NCBI GenBank assembly: GCA_029204225.1
Contig: CM055095.1
Location: forward strand, 44,689,446-44,753,445
Source of the DNA: Diphasiastrum complanatum
Lineage: Eukaryota; Streptophyta; Lycopodiopsida; Lycopodiales; Lycopodiaceae
Length of the DNA stretch: 64,000 nucleotides
Reading direction: 5' to 3'
The position numbers were made by a program, and so were the translations under genes. This document shows positions 35,383-47,100 of the stretch, piece after piece. Each line of letters starts with the position of its first letter. Positions within the stretch are counted from its first letter, which is position 1. Under the pieces are notes generated by a model. That model made no database searches, was not told where the DNA came from, and saw nothing but the letters and a program-made list of their open reading frames with translations.

Positions 35383-36745
35383 TGTTGGGGATATGGTATA
35401 ATACGCTGATACCACTCTGATGGAATGGACACGGGTTCCTAAGGCCATAGCAGAAATGAAGGCCGTTGGCCCAACAAATACAATAATATGATTTAATAGG
35501 ATCTAGATTACTTAGAAAACGGAATGATAGAGTAGTTATGATTTGGTTAAATGTCAGTATAGGTGTTGTAGACAACCATAAAGAGAATGTAAATGATTAG
35601 TCATCTGATACAGCCGTCCTCTTTTCTATTACTAATTGAAAGAAATGTAAAACATTTAGGCGTCTATGATAGCCATACATTTCTTCATTAATGGGTTCTG
35701 ATAATAGAGGTGAAAGAGCGAGAGACATTCAAGCATTCAACATTAATACAACTGATAGAAAAATAGCGATTTTGTATAATAAGTGTTGTAGTAACAACGA
35801 TCAGATCACAAAAAAATAGCGCTAAGCGCGTGATGCTACTTACAAAATTAGATAATTGCTATCTTTCAAAATACTTTACTTTCTCTCTCTATGATCACTA
35901 ACTCTGAGGAGTCAGTTACTGAAAACTAGTTTTGGCTGTTTGATCTCTATTAACAAATGGACTGATCTTGATTGATCTGTATCTCACCCCATGTTCTTGT
36001 AACACTCAGTTGCTTATATAACTGTCAAATGATCTTGTATTATTCCAATCTTACAGTTTAAAAGATTATTAATAGTTCTGAGAGTAGATCCGCAGATCGG
36101 TTATTGGTGGAGCATGAAGACGTGAACAGGTTTAATGAGAAATCTCCTTCGTATGCGAGTGGGAGCGTGAAATTGCGGTGCGATAGCAAGCATGTTGACC
36201 GCAATCGTTGACTTGCAGTATCCTTCGGTTCTCTTACACTTTCGTCCACTTCACATTGTGACCACAGGCTAGACTCGGGCGGTGCCTTGACGCGGTCCCT
36301 CAATGATGTTCCTTTGGTGAGCTGTGCTGTCGCATAAGACCGCATATGCACCGCAGAAGAGACTCTTGTGGTGCAGTTGCGGTTTCTTAGTTGGAACTTT
36401 GTGTGTATTTCTGCATTAAGCTTACTACTACAAATCTGAATTTAAATTGAGACTTAACAAACATACCAGAGTATAATGTTTTGCCCTTGACAAAGGTTTT
36501 GTCAAAATATCAACCAACATACTATCTGTATGATGGTGACTTAGTACAACTTCTTTATTTTGAACTTTATCTCTAAAAAATTGAAACTAAACTTCTATGT
36601 GTTTAGTTCTAGAATGAGTTCATGGGTTCAGAGATAGAGCTATACAGCTCTGATTGTCGCACTGGAGTATAGTTGGACTGATATGTGGAAATTGCAGATC
36701 TTATAGTAACCTTCTGAGCCAAATAATCTCCTAACATGTAGATTT
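35383..36745 (-). mobile_element. Copia 3' end nested in element F
   Basis: The protease of element F stops at 35382, and TGTTGGGGATATGG begins at 35383, as an LTR edge would. The minus-strand reading at 36745-36485 is a Copia RNase H end: QCDNQSCIALSLNP, SRTKHIEV, FFRDKVQNKEVVLSHHHTDS and LVDILTKPLS. So this is the 3' part of a further minus-strand Copia copy, with an LTR of roughly 1 kb between. The exact LTR start is not clear because I see no obvious polypurine tract. Confidence 0.6.
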
Positions 36746-36761
36746 ATGGTCATCAGGAACA

Positions 36762-39700
36762 TTGTATCCTATTGATCCATGTTCATTGCAGCACTCGGAT
36801 TTTCATTCGGTGAGTAAGTTAATAATCTATATGTGTCATGGTAAAAATGGCCTTTTGGGTTACTGTGAGAATTTGATGCTCTATGGGAATGCACATTCAA
36901 TGCAAAGAATACATTATTTGGAAGAGGAATCAAGGAAAATATCAAAGGAGTGCGAAGAAAAATCTACAAAGATGAAAACTTGTTTGGATGAAAATGAGAT
37001 GCTCAAGGAGGAGATCCAAATATTGAAATCTTCTTTGCATCATTATACAACTAGTAATGATGAGATAAAAATTGCATTTCAATCCATGCGTATCTCATAT
37101 TTGTCTCTTGTTAATGATATGGATGTGCTCAACAGAAAGGTTCGAAGCAACAAGAGAAAAAGACTGGTAAACAAGGATATATGTGATCTATCATCCAGAG
37201 GAGGTCATAGAAAAAGACGAATCCGTGCATTCAAGTAAGTTATAGCTTATTTGGTACTAAAAATTCATTAGAGGAGTTCTAAATCCAAAAAAGACCCTTT
37301 GTAAAGATTCTTTTTATATTTTTTTTCAATTTCTTCTTACACATGGACCAATCAAAACACTCAAATTTGAAATCTACGTAACGTAACTTTTTGAGACCAC
37401 ATTTTGATTCCACACTAAAAATGGCATAACTTTTTAGTGGCAAGTCCAAATTTAGCGGAGTTTGGTGCATTGGAAAGCGCTCAACAAGGGCTTTCCAATG
37501 ATATGTTAGACGACATACTTTCGAGCTACGAATAATAAATTATGGCAAATCAAAAGTATTAGTGTTATAATATTTTAATAATATAAACTACATCTTGCAC
37601 GAATTCTTAAAGGGTCTTTTTGGAGCTCAAAACTCCTCTAATGGCTTGAACTTTTTGATTTATTCATAATCACTAATTTTGTTATTTATTCATTTCAACT
37701 TTCTGTTGATTTGTTTATTATATATTGTTGTGAATACTATGAGTGTCCTAATTTCTACTGACATTTTCATGAACATTATCTTTGCAATGCAGATCAACAT
37801 TGGTTGTTGAAGACCATTTGGCCGATGAGATTTCAATTGGAAACTCACTAGGCTCTATCTGCACTTCTAAATCTATGAAATCAATGTTAAATAATAACAA
37901 AATGAAAAAGATTAAGGCTTCAGTTACTGATAACATTATGGATGAAGTTGGAAAAATATTAGACACTACGTTGCTTCAGGGGGCATGTGACTTTTCTAGC
38001 ATCAGTAGGGAAGCATATGCAACAATGTTTAATATGATAAAGGAGGCATTTGCATAGGTAAACATTAAAAAGTTTCCAATCCCACGACCATTTCATCTTT
38101 TAAAAAAAAGAGACATGTTAAACCATGGTATGCAGACAATAGTTGGTAATCCATCTCATATCAATGAAGTGTATTGCTCGAAAGGAGAAAGTCTAGCATA
38201 TAACAATTCCAACAATTTATTGATTGACATTAATCAGTTATTAACATTCATCATAAATTTTTACGGTATTACGAATGAGAATGTCAATAACAAGTTGATA
38301 GTTGTTCTCAGGTTAGATGAGTCTGAAATTATAAAAGGACAAAAAATAGAAAGAGTCAGTCTCACGATCATGAATGGAGCACTTTCAAATTCTGAAGACT
38401 CAGAAGGCCTCAATTTCAATGTTCAATCTAAAAATGATATTTGGTGGTTGGCAACATTTCAGATATAGCAGTTCCTTTGCTAATAAATAGGGACAATCAT
38501 TTGAATATGGATTTCATATCTAAAATCTTCTCTGTGTTAATATTATGAGGCTAATCACATTATTGTATTCTCTTATAGGTGCTGAAAGAAGACCATAACA
38601 TTCTCTCATGAATATTTAATAGAACATCATATCCTGCCACCATAAAAAATCACATGGAGGGAGTTCCACTCAATATTCCTGGAATTGGCACTTTCAACAT
38701 TGAATGGCATTTAGCAGGAGATCTGAAGACATTAAAATATATGTTCAATGTATTTCATGGCGCTAACTCTAAACACCCTTGTTTGTACTGCATGAAAACA
38801 ACAAAAGACATGACAAGGAGTACCTGAATATCAAGAGATCGAGAAGATCCTAATTGGAAACCTGTACTACCGATTCCTCTACGAAATGTTCATATCTGTA
38901 CATTGCATGCGGAGGTGCGTATTATAGAAAAAATAATATATCTTCACATCTTGTTTGCATAGGATTCCGAGCCAGAGTCCTCTGCAAAGGAAGCTATTTC
39001 CAGATTAGAAGATGTGTTGTCCAAAGTAGGCTTACATAAAGGCCACGTTAAAATAAAAAAAGATGACAAGTAGGTAAAATATGAAATATTCCATGCAAGC
39101 CGAGCATTGGAGGATCTAAAGCTCGAAGATTTTTATCAAATTATTCTGGCAAACAATCTAAGGTCCAATACACGGTTTGGAAAGAAATTATTGCAGCAAC
39201 TCAAGATTTTGAAGAAAAAGGTTCTACTTGTATACACAAAGTAAGTTTAGAAAAAGTTAGACAACATGGTGAAATACTTGAGAAAAGATTAATTTTCAAA
39301 TACTGATGTTCAAATGATACAGAAAACAACCAATGAATTTGTGGATGCAATTCAGAGTGCATGGGGTGTTAATCATATAACACATTATATGGTAAGATTT
39401 TGATTTTACACTACGATAGACAAATATGTGCAATTAAATTAGATACTTTTGGTATTGATTTAGATTATGTTTTTATGACATGCAGCACATATTACGACAT
39501 CATTCGACATTCTTTGCAAGAAATAGTGAAAGTTTTAGCATATGGTCATCGCAAGGAATGAAAAATTCTCATTGGCAAGCAAGAGCGACATTTCATAAAA
39601 GTACACAACATGGCGGGACTAGCACAAAAAACAGCTATATATAGCAACTTTTCCAATGGTTTTACAGAAGAATCCAAATTCGTCATAATACAAAATCGAC

Positions 39701-39780
39701 GGATTATAAAAAATTTCAAAAAGCATGCAAATTTATACAAGCCAGTAGGCTATTGACACACAATAAAATTTTGTATATTA
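36762..39780 (+). pseudogene. Transposase-like gene with HPCLYC motif, multi-exon, decayed
   Basis: A coiled-coil-like, basic-ended N-terminal part is at 36762-37236. Its GTAAGT donor joins an acceptor at 37793, and the frame continues to 38468 with one TAG at 38055. Further blocks read LRLDESEIIKGQKIE (about 38300), then EWHLAGDLKTLKYMF and SKHPCLYCMK (about 38700-38800). The final blocks are FSIWSSQGMKNSHWQARA and STQHGGTSTKNS (39530-39620). This spacing (Asp block, GDLKxLK block with Cys pair, then QG-x-x-xSH block) resembles a DDE-type transposase with an inserted zinc site. Similar blocks occur in poorly characterised animal proteins. The superfamily is not certain, and a RAG1/Transib-like fold is only one possibility. 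Stops and shifts at 38610, 38825 and elsewhere mean it is dead. Confidence 0.5.
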
Positions 39781-39815
39781 AATAAAAATATTTACAAAGT
39801 ACAATTCAGCAGTAT

Positions 39816-41142
39816 CTAATCTGCTTCCGATAATTTTTCCAATGAAAGTTGCAACTTAGAATTATGCAACAATTTCCTTCTTTCATATGGATCCAATAGT
39901 TCATAGTTTTTATGCTTACTCAGATCAACGTAAGCAGCATACACTGCAAAATGAGATAATCTGAACATGGAATTCCTTGGTCCGTATCAAAAAATTTTAA
40001 CCGCAATAGTTTTCTTTACAAAAATTATTTTATGCACCTTATTAAAACTATGTCCTCCAAGAAAATGAGACAGTGCCTTGATTGCCATAATCATAGTTTC
40101 ACCATGTTGATGAAACTTTGAATGGACAACACTTATCTCATTAACACGAATTGCAAAATCATCAAGGAAAATTGTTTTCTGAAATGATAAAAAACAAAGT
40201 AAGCTCCAGTATATAATCTGATATAATAAATCTACTAGTACTTGATAAGAGACAAAAACTTACGCATTTAGCTTTGTCTTCTCTGATTATTGTCTCTCCA
40301 TCAATATAATGTCTACCTTTCGATATCAATATTGTTGGTGAATAGACAGTTGGCTGTGGAAAACCAAGTTGACTTTGGATTCTAAGAAACTCCTCCTCAG
40401 AAGGTAGATCATCTTCTTTGTTGCGCATTTCCTCCACAGCCATTTTCAAGCAATCTTTCCTTGAATAAAACTTATCATTATGTACAGTGTCAACACCAGG
40501 GAGAAGATCATCAGCATCAAAATCAATTATATCCGAAAATTCATCAAGCTCTTTGCTTAAAATGCAAAGAGTCTCAACTTCAGTGAAGTAAAAAAGATCC
40601 GATATATCCAATATTGTTAAAAAAAAATTATTATCTATAATATAAGTAGGCAAAGTGATGAAAGATTTATCAGAAGGAGAAAGGGTAGTGGGTGTTCTAG
40701 GGCCTATAAAAGTAGCCCTATTTCGAACAGGATCAAAATCAAAACAATCATCTAAATGAACACTCGTGTCAATAAAAAAGATATCTATATCTACAATCTT
40801 TGACTTTTCAGACTTTGTACCACTAGAAGAAGCTGCTTTAGAAGTGGACGGCACAGAGTCTGAATCATCAGAAATATTTAACAAAAGCAGACTGAAAATC
40901 AACAAATTTACATTTTTTGTGAACTGGACACTCATCTATAGACTTGAAATCATTATGTAACTTGGTAAACATTCTGTCAAGCTTAGCTTTGTAGATATGC
41001 TTGTCGAGTGCCACCAGGTCCTGATAATGAATCATGTCTTTATTCTGAGACCTGAATAACGGAGTACTGAGCAGGGACTTGAATCTGAGATATATCCCAG
41101 AAAATGCCTCCACACCAAGGCCCTCAGTTATAGAAGGTAGCA
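39816..41142 (-). pseudogene. Unrecognised spliced gene, acidic protein
   Basis: A minus-strand frame from about 41142 gives MLPSITEGLGVEAFSG and LDRMFTKLHNDFKSIDECPV. A shift near 40900 leads into a long second frame with a Ser/Asp-rich stretch (DDSDSVPSTSKAASSSGTKS), an acidic middle (DIIDFDADDLLPGVD) and ILISKGRHYIDGETI. A clean donor TGC|GTAAGT at about 40262 and acceptor at 40179 join it to KTIFLDDFAIRVNEI. The last part ends near 39816, with a further intron likely. I do not recognise the family. It converges with the transposase-like gene on its left and diverges from the histone-like unit on its right. Confidence 0.45.
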
Positions 41143-41326
41143 TAAAAAGAAAAGGAGAAAACAAAGATTTGAAATAGTCCAATCTATTAGTAATACCAAA
41201 TTCATTAAAAAAAAAAAAACAAACTGGATTCAAAATAAGAAATTTTAAACAAAAATATAGAACTGAAGTTCCAAATATCACTCTCAGACGCAAACCCCAG
41301 GTCAAACAAGCACGTCAAGGCAACGT

Positions 41327-41371
41327 GCGCTCGAGAGAGATATTGGAAGCTGGAGTATCGGATCCGAGCGC
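41327..41371. promoter_or_regulatory. Palindromic dyad, copy 1
   Basis: GCGCTCGAG at the left and CCGAGCGC at the right are inverted, with inner GATAT and GTATC pairs about 10 bases apart. The same pattern occurs six times between 41327 and 43336. Confidence 0.65.
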
Positions 41372-41407
41372 AAGAACAACGAGCAGGAAAGAAAAGGGAT
41401 ACGAAAC

Positions 41408-41452
41408 GCACTTGAATGCGATACCGGAGGATGCAGTATCGGATCCAGATGC
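41408..41452. promoter_or_regulatory. Palindromic dyad, copy 2
   Basis: GCACTTGAATGCGATACC faces GTATCGGATCCAGATGC. The inner GATAC/GTATC pair is perfect, and the outer arms are decayed. Confidence 0.6.
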
Positions 41453-41700
41453 ATAATAGTCAACGAGACGTAATGAGAGAAAGCGGTGTGCTTGAAATCG
41501 ATATCTGGCAAAACAATCATAAATTTGCGTGAAAATTCGAGCCGGAAAAGACCTATTTATATAAAAAATTTTGCACGTGTGGCGGAGTGGTGAAGGAACA
41601 CGTGTCGACATGTGATCGGCCAAAATAAATGCGCCGTACCTTGAATGATTGATCTGACATATGTCATGTGCGAGAATGACACGTGTCGATAAGAGATTCG

Positions 41701-42355
41701 TGTGAAAAATACAGATCCTAAGTGGATCTAAACTCCAAGATCATTGGCTTGAATGCTTGCACTCCAAACTACATAAGCTAGGAATTGGCAACACATTCTA
41801 TGCTACCTAGAATGCAAAGAACTTGATCAAAAAGCATTTATCACAAATGGAAACTTCCATAAACATCAAGTGCGGCCCAAAATAGCATTATACAGTCCAT
41901 AATACATCAGCCTACCACTTTTGGAAAGCACCTAAGATCATACACAATAGCTTGAAGACAATACACACAACAATGCTCTCAATGGAGGAAGAAACAATGA
42001 CAATGATCTATTGATCTCAATGAAGCATACAAAAGGTTTCTCCAACCTGTTCTCCACGACTTCCCTACTATTTATGGATGAGGAAGATGACTCTCTCTCC
42101 TCTCTCTAGAAGGTACTTGACCCTAGATATTCCCTATATAGGAAAAATAGCTAAAAATGGCTTATATGACCAAAATACATCAAAATGGTCTCATTTTGAA
42201 GGGTATGAAGTTTGACACTTCATCATACTGAAAAAATACAGTAAATAAAAACATTGTGGCCTGGTTCACACGTGTGAAACTCCAGAACCAAAACTATTTA
42301 CAATTTTAGCCAATTTAGGCCTCAAACTAGCTAGGAAATGTTGACAATTTTCACA
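41701..42355 (-). mobile_element. Solo LTR with ATTCG target duplication
   Basis: The 655-bp block begins TGTGAAAAAT and ends ATTTTCACA and is flanked by ATTCG (41696-41700 and 42356-42360). It interrupts repeat unit 1, and the intact unit 2 (42959 region) shows the empty site. Its ends match the LTR of the minus-strand Copia at 58141 (TGTGAAAATTACAGAT), so it is in minus orientation and of that family. No internal region remains, so the two LTRs of a full element have probably recombined. Confidence 0.9.
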
Positions 42356-42602
42356 ATTCGTGCATGTGTCTCAGCCCACGTGTCCCCATAAGTGGGTCAT
42401 AATTATCAGTACAGAATTTTCACGTGGTCTAGTCATCTAATGACACGTGTCTAGGCCGTCTTTTCACACGTGCAAAAATTCATAAAAAAAAAAACAAACT
42501 GGATTCAAAATTAGATATTTTAAATAAAAATAACAGAACTGAAGTTCCAAATATCGCTCTCAGATGCAAACCCCAGGTCCGACAAGCACGTCAAATCAAC
42601 GT

Positions 42603-42647
42603 GCGCTCGAGAGAGATATTTGTAGTTGGAGTATCGGATCTGAGCGC
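42603..42647. promoter_or_regulatory. Palindromic dyad, copy 3
   Basis: This is the unit-2 counterpart of the dyad at 41327: GCGCTCGAG to TGAGCGC with inner GATAT and GTATC. Confidence 0.65.
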
Positions 42648-42683
42648 AAGGAAAACGAGCAAAAAAGAAAAGATTTGCGAGAC

Positions 42684-42728
42684 GCGCTCGAATGTGATAC
42701 CGGACGATGCAGTATCGGATCCAAGCGC
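42684..42728. promoter_or_regulatory. Palindromic dyad, copy 4
   Basis: GCGCTCGAATGTGATACC faces GTATCGGATCCAAGCGC. It is better preserved than its counterpart at 41408. Confidence 0.7.
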
Positions 42729-43100
42729 ATATTAGCCAACGAGATGTAATGAGAGCAAGCGGCGCGCTTGAAATCGATATCCGGCAAAGTAATCGTGAAT
42801 TTGCATGAAAATCCGAGTCCAAAAAGACATATTTATAAAAAAAAATTTGCACGTGTGGAGGACTGGCAAAGGAACACGTGTCGACTTGTGATTAGCCAAA
42901 TTAAATGCGTCGTACCTAGTATGATTGATCTGACATCTGTCACGTGCGAGAATGACACGCGTCGATTAGGGATTCGCACACGTGTCTCAGCCCACGTGGC
43001 CTCATAATTGGCTCATCATTATCAGTATGGACATTCCACGTGGTCTAATCATCTAACGACATGTGTCTCGGCCATTTTTTCACACGTGCAAAAATTTCGT

Positions 43101-43110
43101 ATATATAAGT
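43101..43110 (+). promoter_or_regulatory. TATA-like element of the histone-like unit
   Basis: ATATATAAGT lies about 310 bp upstream of the histone-like start, just after a CACACGTGCAAAA block. The same block (CACGTGCAAAATTTTT followed by TATATAAA) occurs inverted near 41560 for the opposite gene. Confidence 0.5.
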
Positions 43111-43211
43111 CCTCGGAATTTTTATTTTTTTTCGCAAAATTTTCGCTTTTAGCTCCCGATATAGCTCTCAAACGCGCTCTTTCATCTTTCAAGCTTCCGC
43201 CCTCTCTCAGT

Positions 43212-43258
43212 GCGCTCGAGTCCGATACCGCCTACTGTGCAATATCGCTTTCGAGCAC
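43212..43258. promoter_or_regulatory. Palindromic dyad, copy 5, in the leader
   Basis: GCGCTCGAGTCCGATACC faces ATATCGCTTTCGAGCAC. It lies downstream of the TATA-like box, so it would be part of the transcript. Confidence 0.65.
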
Positions 43259-43293
43259 GCATCTCTATCCTGCGAATAATCTTTGTAGGTCTT

Positions 43294-43336
43294 GCGCTTG
43301 AAACCGATATTCAGTGTTGGTATCGATCTCAAGCAC
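43294..43336. promoter_or_regulatory. Palindromic dyad, copy 6, in the leader
   Basis: GCGCTTGAAACCGATATT faces GGTATCGATCTCAAGCAC. It is the closest dyad to the start codon, about 80 bp upstream. Confidence 0.65.
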
Positions 43337-43414
43337 CCTTTCATCGCAATTTTTTTGTTTTGATCCACTTTTGTTTTGTTCAAACTTCTTTTTGTTAACT
43401 TTTTTCTTCCAAGA

Positions 43415-43984
43415 ATGATGGTCAGGACCAAATTCACCACCCGTGCCATCACCACTGTATAGCCATCCCATTCCCGTGTTCAACCTGGTACTGGCCGTAG
43501 GCGTGGCAGGAAGCAGGTCTGGCTGAGAGAGATCAGAAAACTCCAGAGATCAACTGAGTTGTTGATCCCTAGAACTCCTTTTGGCCGATCTGTATGGAAT
43601 GTCACTCTGTCACTTGGGCTGGATGTTCGTTTTGCCCTGACAGCCATGCAGGCCTTGCAGGGTTCTGTAGAAGATTTTCTATCCTAGTTTTTTGAGGATA
43701 CTTGTCTTTTGGCAATGCATGGTAAGCGTGTCATCATTATGCCAAAGGATTTTGTCATTCTCAAAAGGCTTCGGGACAGATATTTTGGTCTGCATGTTGA
43801 TAATGCCATCACCTCTAGAGACCTGCCTCTGGATAGAACCAACGTGTCTACTACCTCTAGGAGGAAGAGAAAGCAGGCTGTTCCCAAGAAGGCTGGATCT
43901 CGAGGGCCAGCTGCTTCCCTTCCTCCTAGACGTATCCTGGCCAAGAGACCCCGTGTCTTCCTGAGCTTTGAGTCAGATGCCTGA
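43415..43984 (+). pseudogene. Histone H3-like domain, with two in-frame stops
   Basis: One frame of 190 codons reads through two TAG codons (43460 and 43685) to a TGA at 43982. The start VRTKFTTRAITT resembles the canonical H3 tail ARTKQTARKST. The alpha-N and core match H3 well: LREIRKLQRSTELLIP, then PFGRSV, DVRFALTAMQALQ, FEDTCLLAMHGKRV and IIMPKD. The tail is shortened, and the Loop 1 length equals ordinary H3, not the longer CENP-A type. After the fold come about 65 basic residues (RRKRKQAVPKKAGSR, RRILAKRPRV), unlike cellular H3. A frameshift at the TGA would lead on into an acidic/Pro-rich linker (ESSPSPPPVIRPAP) and then the protease-like part. There are no introns. It could be captured by a transposon or be a diverged H3 retrocopy. 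Confidence 0.75.
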
Positions 43985-44069
43985 CTCAGATCAAGAATCT
44001 TCACCCAGTCCTCCTCCTGTTATTCGTCCAGCTCCTCTGCAGGTTTCATCACCAAAAGTGTTGATTACC

Positions 44070-45480
44070 CAAGAGGACTAGACAGAATAACAGAGAAATC
44101 TGTAAATATTCTTTCCACTTCTGTTTCTGCTCCTGTACATAATGTTTTTGTGAAAATTCCATACGATCCAGCCCAATTTTTTTTATTTATTCTGACCATT
44201 ATAATCAATACGAGGCCTACCTAGCTAGCAAAATTGATCTTCTCGGCAACTTTTTTTGATTTTTTCTTTCAGATACACGTAGAAGCTTTAGATTAGGTCC
44301 CAAATTTTGTGCCGAGCTAAAAGATAAGACCTCAAAAATTTCAGATGCAATAGTAGAGGTTGGAGTTTCTTTTTTGTAGAATAGTATTAGTTTCGATTCC
44401 CATGGTACAGTTTTTGTAGTTAGTCCATTTTTCATGGGAGCGGTAAAGGCAAATGAAGCCAATTTTGAGAAGGCTGTCTATTTTATCGAGTGCAATCCTA
44501 TGACAAAATTTTATTTGATTCCATATGAAAATAAGTAAGGATTACTCTTTTCTTTTTGTTGCTTTAATTTGTATTGTTGCATGCCTCATTGCTTTAATAA
44601 GAACAAATTTTTTTCATGAATATGAATTTAACGATATTTGTATCTTGGCTATTGCAGTCGGCATTGGAGCCTAAACATTCTTTTTGTAAAGATAAATAAG
44701 GAGAGAGTATCAAATTTTCTATGTGTAAAATTAAACTCAGCTGCAAATACACATAGAGAATTTGATTCTCTACTTCATGATGTAGTTCGGGAAATACCGA
44801 CAACGGCAACTTCAATTGGAGATATAACCATTAAATCTCTCAAGGTATATTCAATTTATCTCTGATATGCATGTATTTCTTTTTTAATTCAAATGTATTG
44901 TCATAGCATAAATAAAATTTCTATCATAATATTATTAATTTTCGTTCTATATATGCAGTGTGTACAACAAAATGACGCTTTTAGTTGTGCATGGTTCGTC
45001 CTGTACAATACGAAGCTATTTTTTGAATGGTATAATTTACAAACGGATGTAGATATTGAAAAGATAATATTCTATTCATTTGTAGTTCATTTCATTCTGA
45101 TTTATATATTATTACTATCATTGTTTGTAATTTGTTGATTCTCATGTTTTTTCATGACATTCTTGAGTCGTATACTCCTGATGATGTATATAGATTTCGG
45201 CAAGAGTTGATCAAAACCTTTGCCCAGTACAGTGTAAGCGTTGCACCTGCAATCGAGGGCCCTCAAAAAAAAGTTGCTCCTGCCTTAACAGCCTTTCAGC
45301 TTGTTTAGAATGCAGATCTTATTTTATATGATAAAAAAGGAATAAAAGTCCTTCCTATTACAAAGGAAGGCAATTTTGTAGCAGATATTCCTCTTACCTT
45401 AAAAGGCATTGAGGCCCTCCCCGAAACAGAGGAGGGCGAGATTATAGAAGGAGCTGTTGCTTTATCAGTTCTTTATCAGT
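44070..45480 (+). pseudogene. C48/Ulp1-like cysteine protease, decayed, probably fused to the H3-like part
   Basis: The upstream segment (KISDAIVEVGVSF, then NFEKAVYFIECNP and FYLIPYEN) is followed by a GT-AG intron (44535-44657). The next exon starts RHWSLNILFV (catalytic His). Another intron (44845-44958) leads to VQQNDAFSCAWFVLYNTKLF, which supplies the oxyanion Gln and catalytic Cys. The usual Asp appears replaced by Asn (VKLNS). This is the layout of the Ulp1/adenain clan. Such proteases occur in several plant and animal DNA transposons. After it, a further segment (RFRQELIKTFAQYSV and on) is present to about 45480. In-frame stops occur at about 44250 and 44379. Cleavage targets are unknown. 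Confidence 0.55.
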
Positions 45481-45891
45481 TCCTAATATTGATATAGAAA
45501 ATATAAAAAAATTGATTGAATAGAGATCTATTTGTAGATAGAGAGACATAAAAAAAAAGATACAATCATTTTACTTGTAAACAACCCGTTTATGGGTTTT
45601 TTTTATTGATATCACAATAGATTCTTACAATCAGCTTGTGTCCATAGTCTAATAATGGAATGTAATTTTTCTATGATTATAAAAAGACATTGGCATGTAT
45701 TTGCTAATAGTGAATCTCAATATTCTTCCATAAGTTAGATTGTTTCGTCAATATCTCTGCATTTGATCTCGAGCTCATGTCTTTTACGTACTTGCATAAA
45801 ATTAATACAAAGTTAGTTAGAATTAGTACAGAGTTTGTATTAGAAAGTTTTGATTGAACCTATTCATAAAAGATCGAGTGTTTATAGTTAC
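45481..45891. other. No gene seen
   Basis: A/T-rich spacer between the protease-like unit and the minus-strand gene on its right. CCCGTTTATGGG at 45588-45599 is a short palindrome. Confidence 0.35.
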
Positions 45892-47100
45892 TTACGAGTT
45901 TACAATTGAGAATGAATCTGAAGTCTGAAAGTACATCATCTTGTAGGAGCAATAGTTCCCGCCGGATGTAGTTTCAACACATGTCAAAACGACATCATTG
46001 TATATAATTTCAATATTTTTTTGTTTTGAATGTCCACTAACTTCCAAGTCTTGATCGAGTGGCACCCATTTAACTTTATTTTTTTTCCATCTTTGATAAT
46101 GGAGACATAAGCTCAACATTTGTTTTTCAATTTGATAATGGAAGCATATGGAAGACATTTTAATTTTGCATTCTATTTCTCCATCTGATCTTTTGTCCCA
46201 GCCTTCATCCATAAGTTCAGATAATAAACTATCTGATAAATTTTTGCATACAAACATTGTTGGAGTTTTGTGTACATTGACACTTGAAAAGAAATCCACA
46301 AATATATTCAAGGAAATAAACAAACTCAATTTGACTGTTTTTTATCTCGTGCTCATTTTTAATGAATTTTTTACATCATTATATATCTTGCAACGAAATG
46401 ATTCTGAAACTGTAGCATCTGGTGCAATCCATTTATCACTTTCAAAGCTAGGTAATGGAATTGGTACTTTTTGTCCAAAATTTTCTTTTGTATCAGGAAT
46501 GTACATTGATTCATTAAAAAAAATTCCACCATCAACTAGATCTTTTGCAGTTCTACCTTGATATTGCAGCTGTCCAATATCAGTGTGAATAACATCTAAC
46601 ACACCTGCTAAAGATCCACTCAGCTCCCATTCATTTATGTTGGATGGATATAAATCTGCAAGAGAAAAATGATCAGATGGCAAGTTTACTATTAGATATT
46701 TATGAATGACAAAATCAAAGTATCAAAAAAATTAATACTCACAGTTGCTTTTTTTGTGATCCTGATGGTTGAATCCTTGCACATTTATCTCTGAATGCAT
46801 ATATACATGCTGGACTAGAATTTCAAAAATAGATTTTCCTCCTGATGATGTTCTAAAATCCAAAATTCTGGCCTTCCAATAAGATCAAAATGATAGTTTT
46901 GACCTTTTACTTTTTCGAAATGCTCCTCTTGATGACGGATGCATCAAAACGCAAGAGTTTTTTGAATATTTTCTTGGCACCCATACTCCATTATCATTTG
47001 TCTCGTTGAATAGAAGCACAGAGTCAATTGAGGAGCACGGCTTTCTTGATGGCGCCATTTGTAATTTGCATGCAAAAATCTAAAACAATGAACTATGAAT
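45892..47100 (-). pseudogene. Unrecognised spliced gene
   Basis: The minus-strand reading begins near 46900 with WKARILDFRTSSGGKSIFE and VQHVYMHSEINVQGF. A GTGAGT donor (complement of 46737-46742) and a TCTTGCAG acceptor (exon from 46655) join it to DLYPSNINEWELSGSLAG. It continues through QYQGRTAKDLVDGGIFF and FESDKWIAPDATV to a stop at 46342. A shifted frame then gives SDSLLSELMDEGWDKRS and IIYNDVVLTCVETTSG to about 45892. I do not recognise the family. It may be another gene of the transposon proposed for this region. Confidence 0.4.

Follow-up and report, generated by a model that had tools for sequence, protein, structure and literature searches.

The locus described here raises two questions: whether a histone H3 found in a plant mobile element is truly joined to the protease lying beside it, and what use an element could make of such a protein. 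The window, a stretch of 64,000 nucleotides from the lycopod Diphasiastrum complanatum, holds at positions 43415-45308 a decayed copy of one spliced gene, comprising an H3 histone fold, a basic and Pro-rich linker and a C48 (Ulp1-like) protease. The analysis indicates that this is almost certainly a fusion gene within a high-copy, four-gene element, with an H3 that has no Lys at position 9. The parts of the gene are as follows, exon 4 being placed approximately through alignment by eye with exon 4 of a related element copy, e6.

43415..44535, + strand: exon 1 of the H3-C48 gene (decayed), with H3 tail, H3 core, basic/Pro linker and protease start
43418..43456, + strand: H3-like tail MVRTKFTTRAITT, with R2, T3, K4, T6 and R8 present and A at position 9
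43520..43783, + strand: H3 histone-fold core, PF00125 found on two pieces
44658..44844, + strand: exon 2, with RHWSLN in the catalytic His region and VKLNSA at the acidic-residue position
44959..45063, + strand: exon 3, with CVQQNDAFSC holding the active-site Gln and Cys of C48
45155..45308, + strand: exon 4 (approximate), the C-terminus

A preliminary description of this stretch had reported an H3-like tail start, a core and an extra basic stretch from 43415, and all three were confirmed. The frame that opens there is divided by two in-frame TAG stops. The Pfam Histone family matches the piece after the first stop (43463-43687) at E = 4.1e-11 and the next piece (43688-43984) at E = 0.0042, the latter under the curated cut-off. 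Copies of the window's lineage, termed A2, mostly read MARTKSTARAITT at the tail. The spliced, C48-like protease proposed downstream was borne out by tblastn with e6, which matches the protease start (44182-44535, 31% identity, E = 1.9e-10), exon 2 (44662-44844, E = 7.7e-9) and exon 3 (44965-45063, E = 3.3e-13); window exon 4 was not recovered by this search. Exon 1 ends at the donor AA^gtaagg, compared with AA^gtaaga in e6, and the first intron is phase-2 in both. The PF02902 profile gives a weak match, under the cut-off, to the window piece with exon 3 (0.031) and none to the pieces with exon 2 and the protease start. As had also been stated, both parts are broken in the window: two TAGs interrupt the H3 part, the frame shifts at least once, and exon 3 is followed by AT in place of GT.

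The e6 gene has four exons by reading, and its spliced protease matches PF02902 at 1.5e-10 (41.7 bits against a cut-off of 20.7). The His, Gln and Cys of this protease align with those of yeast Ulp1 (PDB 1euv, 0.0013; 6dg4, 0.00076). A1 and A2 copies, like the window, have Asn where the active site calls for an acidic residue (VKMNSA/VKLNSA), and C48 activity is uncertain for this reason.

That histone and protease form one protein is seen in the copies elsewhere in the host genome. With exon 1 of e6 as the query (331 aa: H3, linker and protease start), each of the 121 scored matches, the best of 9699 candidates, covers at least 314 of the 331 residues in one frame, and 23 are stop-free; incomplete copies are under-represented because the best candidates alone were scored. 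Since H3, linker and protease start lie in one exon and one frame in the stop-free copies, the fusion is a true one. The joining of H3 to protease suggested earlier therefore stands, whereas the frameshift placed between them is decay of the window copy. A repeated open frame with both parts, the check set beforehand, was found for exon 1, with the remaining protease in spliced exons. Two separate neighbouring genes are ruled out by the frame that all 121 scored matches share. The broken state of the window copy could also suggest misassembly or chance, with a decayed H3 pseudogene lying next to an unrelated protease fragment; this is virtually impossible, being refuted by those same matches.

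The H3 part is likewise no single-copy host gene, pseudogene or retrocopy, one half of the case named as refuting the claim; this was excluded by copy number and by the spread of H3-C48 matches over many contigs. The Pfam Histone search of the host genome scored 150 of 6325 first-look candidates. Among the 150, 13 matches at ~164 bits represent the host's own H3 type, and the other matches listed are mostly at ~95-110 bits, many in frames of 200-400 aa. The 189-aa window reading, with TAG taken as Gln, gave 150 scored matches at 78-99% identity. A genome search with PF02902, which is a weak search, gave 3 matches among 150 scored of 520 candidates. TAG accounts for 161 of the 189 stops in the exon-1 matches, and a footprint of CHG methylation was considered; this reading was dropped because CAG is also the main codon that a single C-to-T change turns into a stop.

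The mobile-element setting was upheld by terminal inverted repeats (TIRs) and dispersed high-copy matches. In e6 (L011+L006), the sole complete copy, an inverted repeat of ~35 bp (CATTAGAGGAGTT...) stands at both ends, 9.3 kb apart, and one TIR end is present in each of e4 and e8. The gene order in e6 is transposase-like, “RRGG” (opposite strand), H3-C48 and “DLYPS” (opposite strand). Relatives of all four genes, colinear and decayed, occupy 36735-47049 of the window. The features around the H3-C48 gene are:

36735..39406, + strand: gene 1, transposase-like (decayed); tblastn with e6 ORFs, 38-75% identity, E 1.5e-28 to 1.5e-76
37262..37643, no strand: MITE-like 0.38-kb insert with ends resembling the TIR of H3-C48 elements (inverted pair I1)
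39858..41212, - strand: gene 2, “RRGG” protein (decayed); tblastn with e4/e6 ORFs, 33-42% identity, E 2e-17 to 3e-22
41208..43096, no strand: sequence ahead of the H3 gene, containing large direct repeats
45890..47049, - strand: gene 4, conserved “DLYPS” protein (decayed); tblastn with e6 exons, 50-58% identity, E 8e-25 to 5e-56

A search for TIRs at the ends of the element in the window found none. The MITE-like insert, which carries TIRs of the H3-C48 element family, sits inside gene 1; its ends agree with the 35-bp TIR at 31/35 and 29/35 positions, against 21-24 for the best of three shuffled windows. Upstream of the H3 gene, 41208-41507 is repeated directly at 42484-42783 (82%) and 42356-42480 at 42972-43096 (85%). 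These repeats are perhaps promoter blocks or binding arrays.

The label “transposon” is based on the TIRs, dispersal and copy number. Place and conservation are the basis on which gene 1 is taken as the putative transposase. It matched no Pfam family and no MULE domain (three A1 and two B ORFs, E up to 1), no PDB entry and no relative in viral contigs; a virus origin was set aside on this last comparison, which was made with gene 1 alone. Target duplications of Mutator-like and VANDAL elements are 8-11 bp long, and none was seen by eye in the flanks of e6. A BAH domain in gene 4 appeared likely by eye and received no support from Pfam or PDB profiles.

The four-gene arrangement extends to a more distant lineage, B. 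In tblastn against three B stretches, relatives of all four genes were found in e7 (L009+L007) and, with gene 4 represented by one piece, in e5 (L005); e3 (L010+L003) has all except gene 1. Protein identity in these matches is 27-45%, gene 2 being matched by its C-terminal part alone. The transposase-like half of B is inverted between L005:5676-9487 and L007:4874-8690, where the copies are 95-97% identical.

Eight lineages of the H3 part (A1, A2, B, C, D, E, F and G) were named from alignments of 60 loci; further start and core types appear in pattern lists outside these loci. PF00125 matches the H3 part at 3e-27 in A1 and at 2.7e-28 in B. The 60 PDB matches listed, of 176, are all named H3, H3 type or histone-domain protein. 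The element proteins share with host H3 (plant H3.1 type) the core, at 42-58% identity across lineages, and most of residues 1-8; they differ from it in having no K9, unrelated residues 9-18 and either a C-terminal fusion or a long N-terminal insertion. The segment FED...H.KRVT.[ML]P is found in all lineage representatives, lacking only the P in one D copy. A single-sequence fold prediction of the H3 part gave an uninformative model (mean pLDDT 39.8).

CENH3/CENP-A is a fast-evolving H3 relative, and CENH3s are usually without an ARTKQT start. An origin from CENH3 is not favoured, since the 60 PDB rows listed are H3, with no CENP-A among them. A markedly longer loop 1 is found in lineage G alone. 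In G the H3 was seen on its own. Dozens of G-type 26-mer starts (MARTKQTAR) lie at ~18.5-21.1 Mb of G000:C3, some of them 0.6-3 kb apart. In the two G copies that were read (L057:1513 and L057:4696), L follows MARTKQTAR. The crowding on G000:C3 could reflect targeted insertion, a centromere or segmental duplication.

The protease was seen in fewer lineages than the histone. H3 is joined to a C48 protease in A1, A2 and E, the protease pieces of E being recognised by eye; in E copy L055 a single frame holds the latter half of the core, the linker and the beginning of the protease. In the F copy, H3 and linker are followed by a protease start that lies in a different frame (by eye). In copies read from B, C and D, the H3 frame stops directly after the core or a little beyond it, and in B the H3 makes up the C-terminus of a longer, Pro-rich protein. 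An RS-rich stretch follows the H3 tail start in B and C (L043, L001), and in B the core is also preceded by a long run of Pro. Of these three lineages, B was searched with profiles of C48 exons 2 and 3, which gave no match above chance level in five stretches (E 0.57 and 0.88, in e3), whereas on the window the same profiles gave 7e-32 and 5e-24. As B has relatives of all four genes and the H3, with no protease found, the H3 looks like a core gene of the element. So the H3 entered the element before the A/B split, or was gained twice. The host LLIRKLPF has become LLIP-R/K-A in most lineages, with Pro for Arg, and a single H3 origin is favoured because this change is common to most of them.

The tail of the element H3 departs from that of the host, which begins MARTKQTARK. 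The lineages begin MARTKSTARA (A2), MDRRKQTRRD (A1), MARTKQTARD (B), MARTKQTGRR (C), MARTKQTARE (D), MARTKHTARP-K (E), MARAKQTTRT (F) and MARTKQTARL (G). When eight tails, one hand-picked representative per lineage, were compared ungapped with the host tail, residues 1-8 gave 56/64 matches, with R2, K4, T6 and R8 in 8/8, and residues 9-18 gave 2/80. None of the eight representatives has K at position 9. In E a Pro precedes K-S-T (ARP-KST) and the Lys is out of register; as K-S-T is kept with a one-residue gap, K9 may have been displaced in this lineage rather than lost. Two decayed D copies, L058 and L059, have K at 9, where L035 has E. The A1 start and the two Mets with which most A2 copies begin imply that the true N-terminus of the protein may differ from that of H3. 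With the K4 context kept, K9 lacking and residues 9-18 unmatched, the protein is thus an H3-derived variant and not an ordinary H3.

Genome-wide, there are 836 exact MARTKxTAR starts, with K next in 26 of them, and reversed-pattern controls gave 0. These 26 include 13 that are the 164-bit host H3 genes, one truncated host H3 (L060) and the D copies L058 and L059; the other 10 include 3 near H3 exon matches. The remaining 810 of the 836 starts were classed by pattern rather than one by one, and the starts of A1, C and F do not fit MARTKxTAR and lie outside the 836. When codon 4 was left free and Gln required at 5, the count was 523 places, and the ~100 listed all have Lys at 4 (by eye).

Selection was estimated as dN/dS (Nei-Gojobori, with codon bootstrap) on stop-free copies of common ancestry. 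The A1 set held 10 of 11 copies, L029 being left out for a core frameshift, and the A2 set held 12. CpG decay could inflate dS, and the linker of the same copies served as the control. In A1, dN/dS is 0.05 (0-0.17) for tail residues 1-10, 0.65 (0.24-2.13) for tail 11-37, 0.23 (0.14-0.38) for the core, 0.79 (0.50-1.31) for the linker and 0.40 (0.23-0.70) for the protease start. The corresponding values in A2 are 0.24 (0.06-0.73), 0.53 (0.22-1.57), 0.46 (0.28-0.83), 0.85 (0.56-1.37) and 0.63 (0.45-0.90). The tail 1-10 and core intervals are clear of the linker in A1, whereas in A2 the intervals overlap it. Protease exon 2 of A1 gives 0.66 (0.37-1.27) for 6 of 9 matching copies, which is not clearly below 1.

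These values bear on two alternatives. The first is passive gene capture (transduplication), in which the gene would be a functionless passenger amplified along with the element. Plant elements often take up pieces of host genes, Ulp1 among them, according to the portions available of two surveys (PMC13317346, PMC2528002). However, the A1 tail and core have dN/dS well under the value for the linker in these copies, more weakly so in A2, and the gene is common to lineages with 27-45% protein identity in four genes; passive capture is accordingly very unlikely. In the second, the C48 domain would cut the fusion itself and free the histone, with SUMO not its substrate. The long, near-neutral linker could be a cuttable spacer in such a polyprotein, but lineage B, in which no protease was found, and the lack of any known cleavage motif speak against it and make it decidedly unlikely.

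The preliminary description had also guessed at a role in host chromatin, and the kept K4 context together with the missing K9 sharpen that guess. It is plausible, with confidence a little short of even, that the self-encoded, K9-less H3 or its fusion counters silencing based on H3K9me2 and is an element-encoded anti-silencing factor. The H3-derived protein would enter nucleosomes or bind sites on them, whether confined to the element or spread more broadly. A tail without K9 could not be methylated there, and K4 methylation would still be possible. CMT3 binds H3K9me2 in a loop with SUVH4-6, and SHH1 recognises unmethylated H3K4 together with methylated H3K9, according to the sections consulted of a review (PMC7617993). 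In this way the H3K9me2-CMT3/SUVH loop may be left without its substrate, and so may the SHH1-type step that recruits RNA-directed DNA methylation. In the fused lineages, the protease might strip SUMO, or a like modifier, from nearby silencing factors. The role would be analogous to that of VANC/KIU of the Arabidopsis VANDAL elements, but built on a histone. Each step past the missing Lys at position 9 is an inference.

Position 9 may merely be unconstrained, an explanation of the tails that is almost as good as selection against the Lys. Once the Lys has gone, eight K-less lineages are by themselves no evidence of selection against it. The sharp edge of conservation also fits a decoy, a free K4-tail lure that titrates readers and writers of the H3 N-terminus (e.g., ZMP or SHH1, helpers of Pol IV), with the core serving for stability or nuclear import. 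The tail is conserved at residues 1-8 only, the same review (PMC7617993) counts ZMP and SHH1 among the proteins that read unmethylated H3K4 and links them to Pol IV, and titration suits a high copy number. A mere lure would not need the core, yet the core is conserved too (FED...H.KRVT.[ML]P), and a decoy is unlikely. It has further been considered that the histone domain docks an element protein on nucleosomes or H4, steering transposition or shielding excised DNA, with the missing K9 incidental. Such a tether would agree with an H3 that belongs to the four-gene element across deep lineages and with the crowding of G-type starts on C3, as targeted insertion might give. It is nevertheless quite unlikely, as the C3 cluster may be a segmental duplication and the conservation edge after residue 8 is left unexplained.

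The anti-silencing reading has its closest precedent in the KIU/VANC genes of VANDAL elements (non-TIR MULEs) in Arabidopsis, which likewise place an element-encoded Ulp1 domain in a non-transposase gene (PMC13317346, PMC10398659). VANC proteins remove methylation from their own elements, in the account available (PMC10398659), and hypomethylation of related copies is reported for KIU-carrying VANDALs with the Ulp1 domain in VANC (PMC13317346). No histone part is mentioned for KIU/VANC in the accounts available, and VANDALs are non-TIR, whereas the H3-C48 elements have TIRs and no MULE domain was found in them. ULP1 (C48) domains also occur in plant CACTA and MULE elements, those of grapevine among them, as given in part of a survey (PMC2528002). 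The word “histone” has 0 occurrences in that survey and 0 in a 2026 review of gene capture by plant elements (PMC13317346).

A parasite core histone is better known from viruses. Singlet viral histones, such as the bracovirus H4 and the single H3s of some DNA viruses, are thought to enter host nucleosomes, and the bracovirus H4 keeps the tail lysines known to be modified, in the sections available of the source (PMC9145170). The element H3 differs from these in having a tail replaced beyond residue 8, in lacking K9 and, in some lineages, in carrying a fused protease. The open-access literature searched gave no precedent for a transposon-encoded H3 or an H3-Ulp1 fusion, which is not proof that none exists.

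In the broadest form of the anti-silencing reading, which is possible but doubtful, the elements would represent an ancient class of plant transposon with a standing core-histone gene. This gene would provide the K4 module and the fold with K9 stripped away, making chromatin that is invisible to the H3K9me2/DNA-methylation loop, with some lineages armed with a SUMO protease. It would be the first known case of selection maintaining a core-histone gene that belongs to a family of transposons. The element H3 points to the minimal tail, residues 1-8, that a parasite needs. As a natural K9-less H3, it offers a test of the need for nucleosomal H3K9 methylation in the silencing of plant transposons, and the fusion of histone and SUMO protease could serve as a ready chromatin tool. 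If the proposal is true, this would be a transposon with self-made, silencing-proof chromatin.
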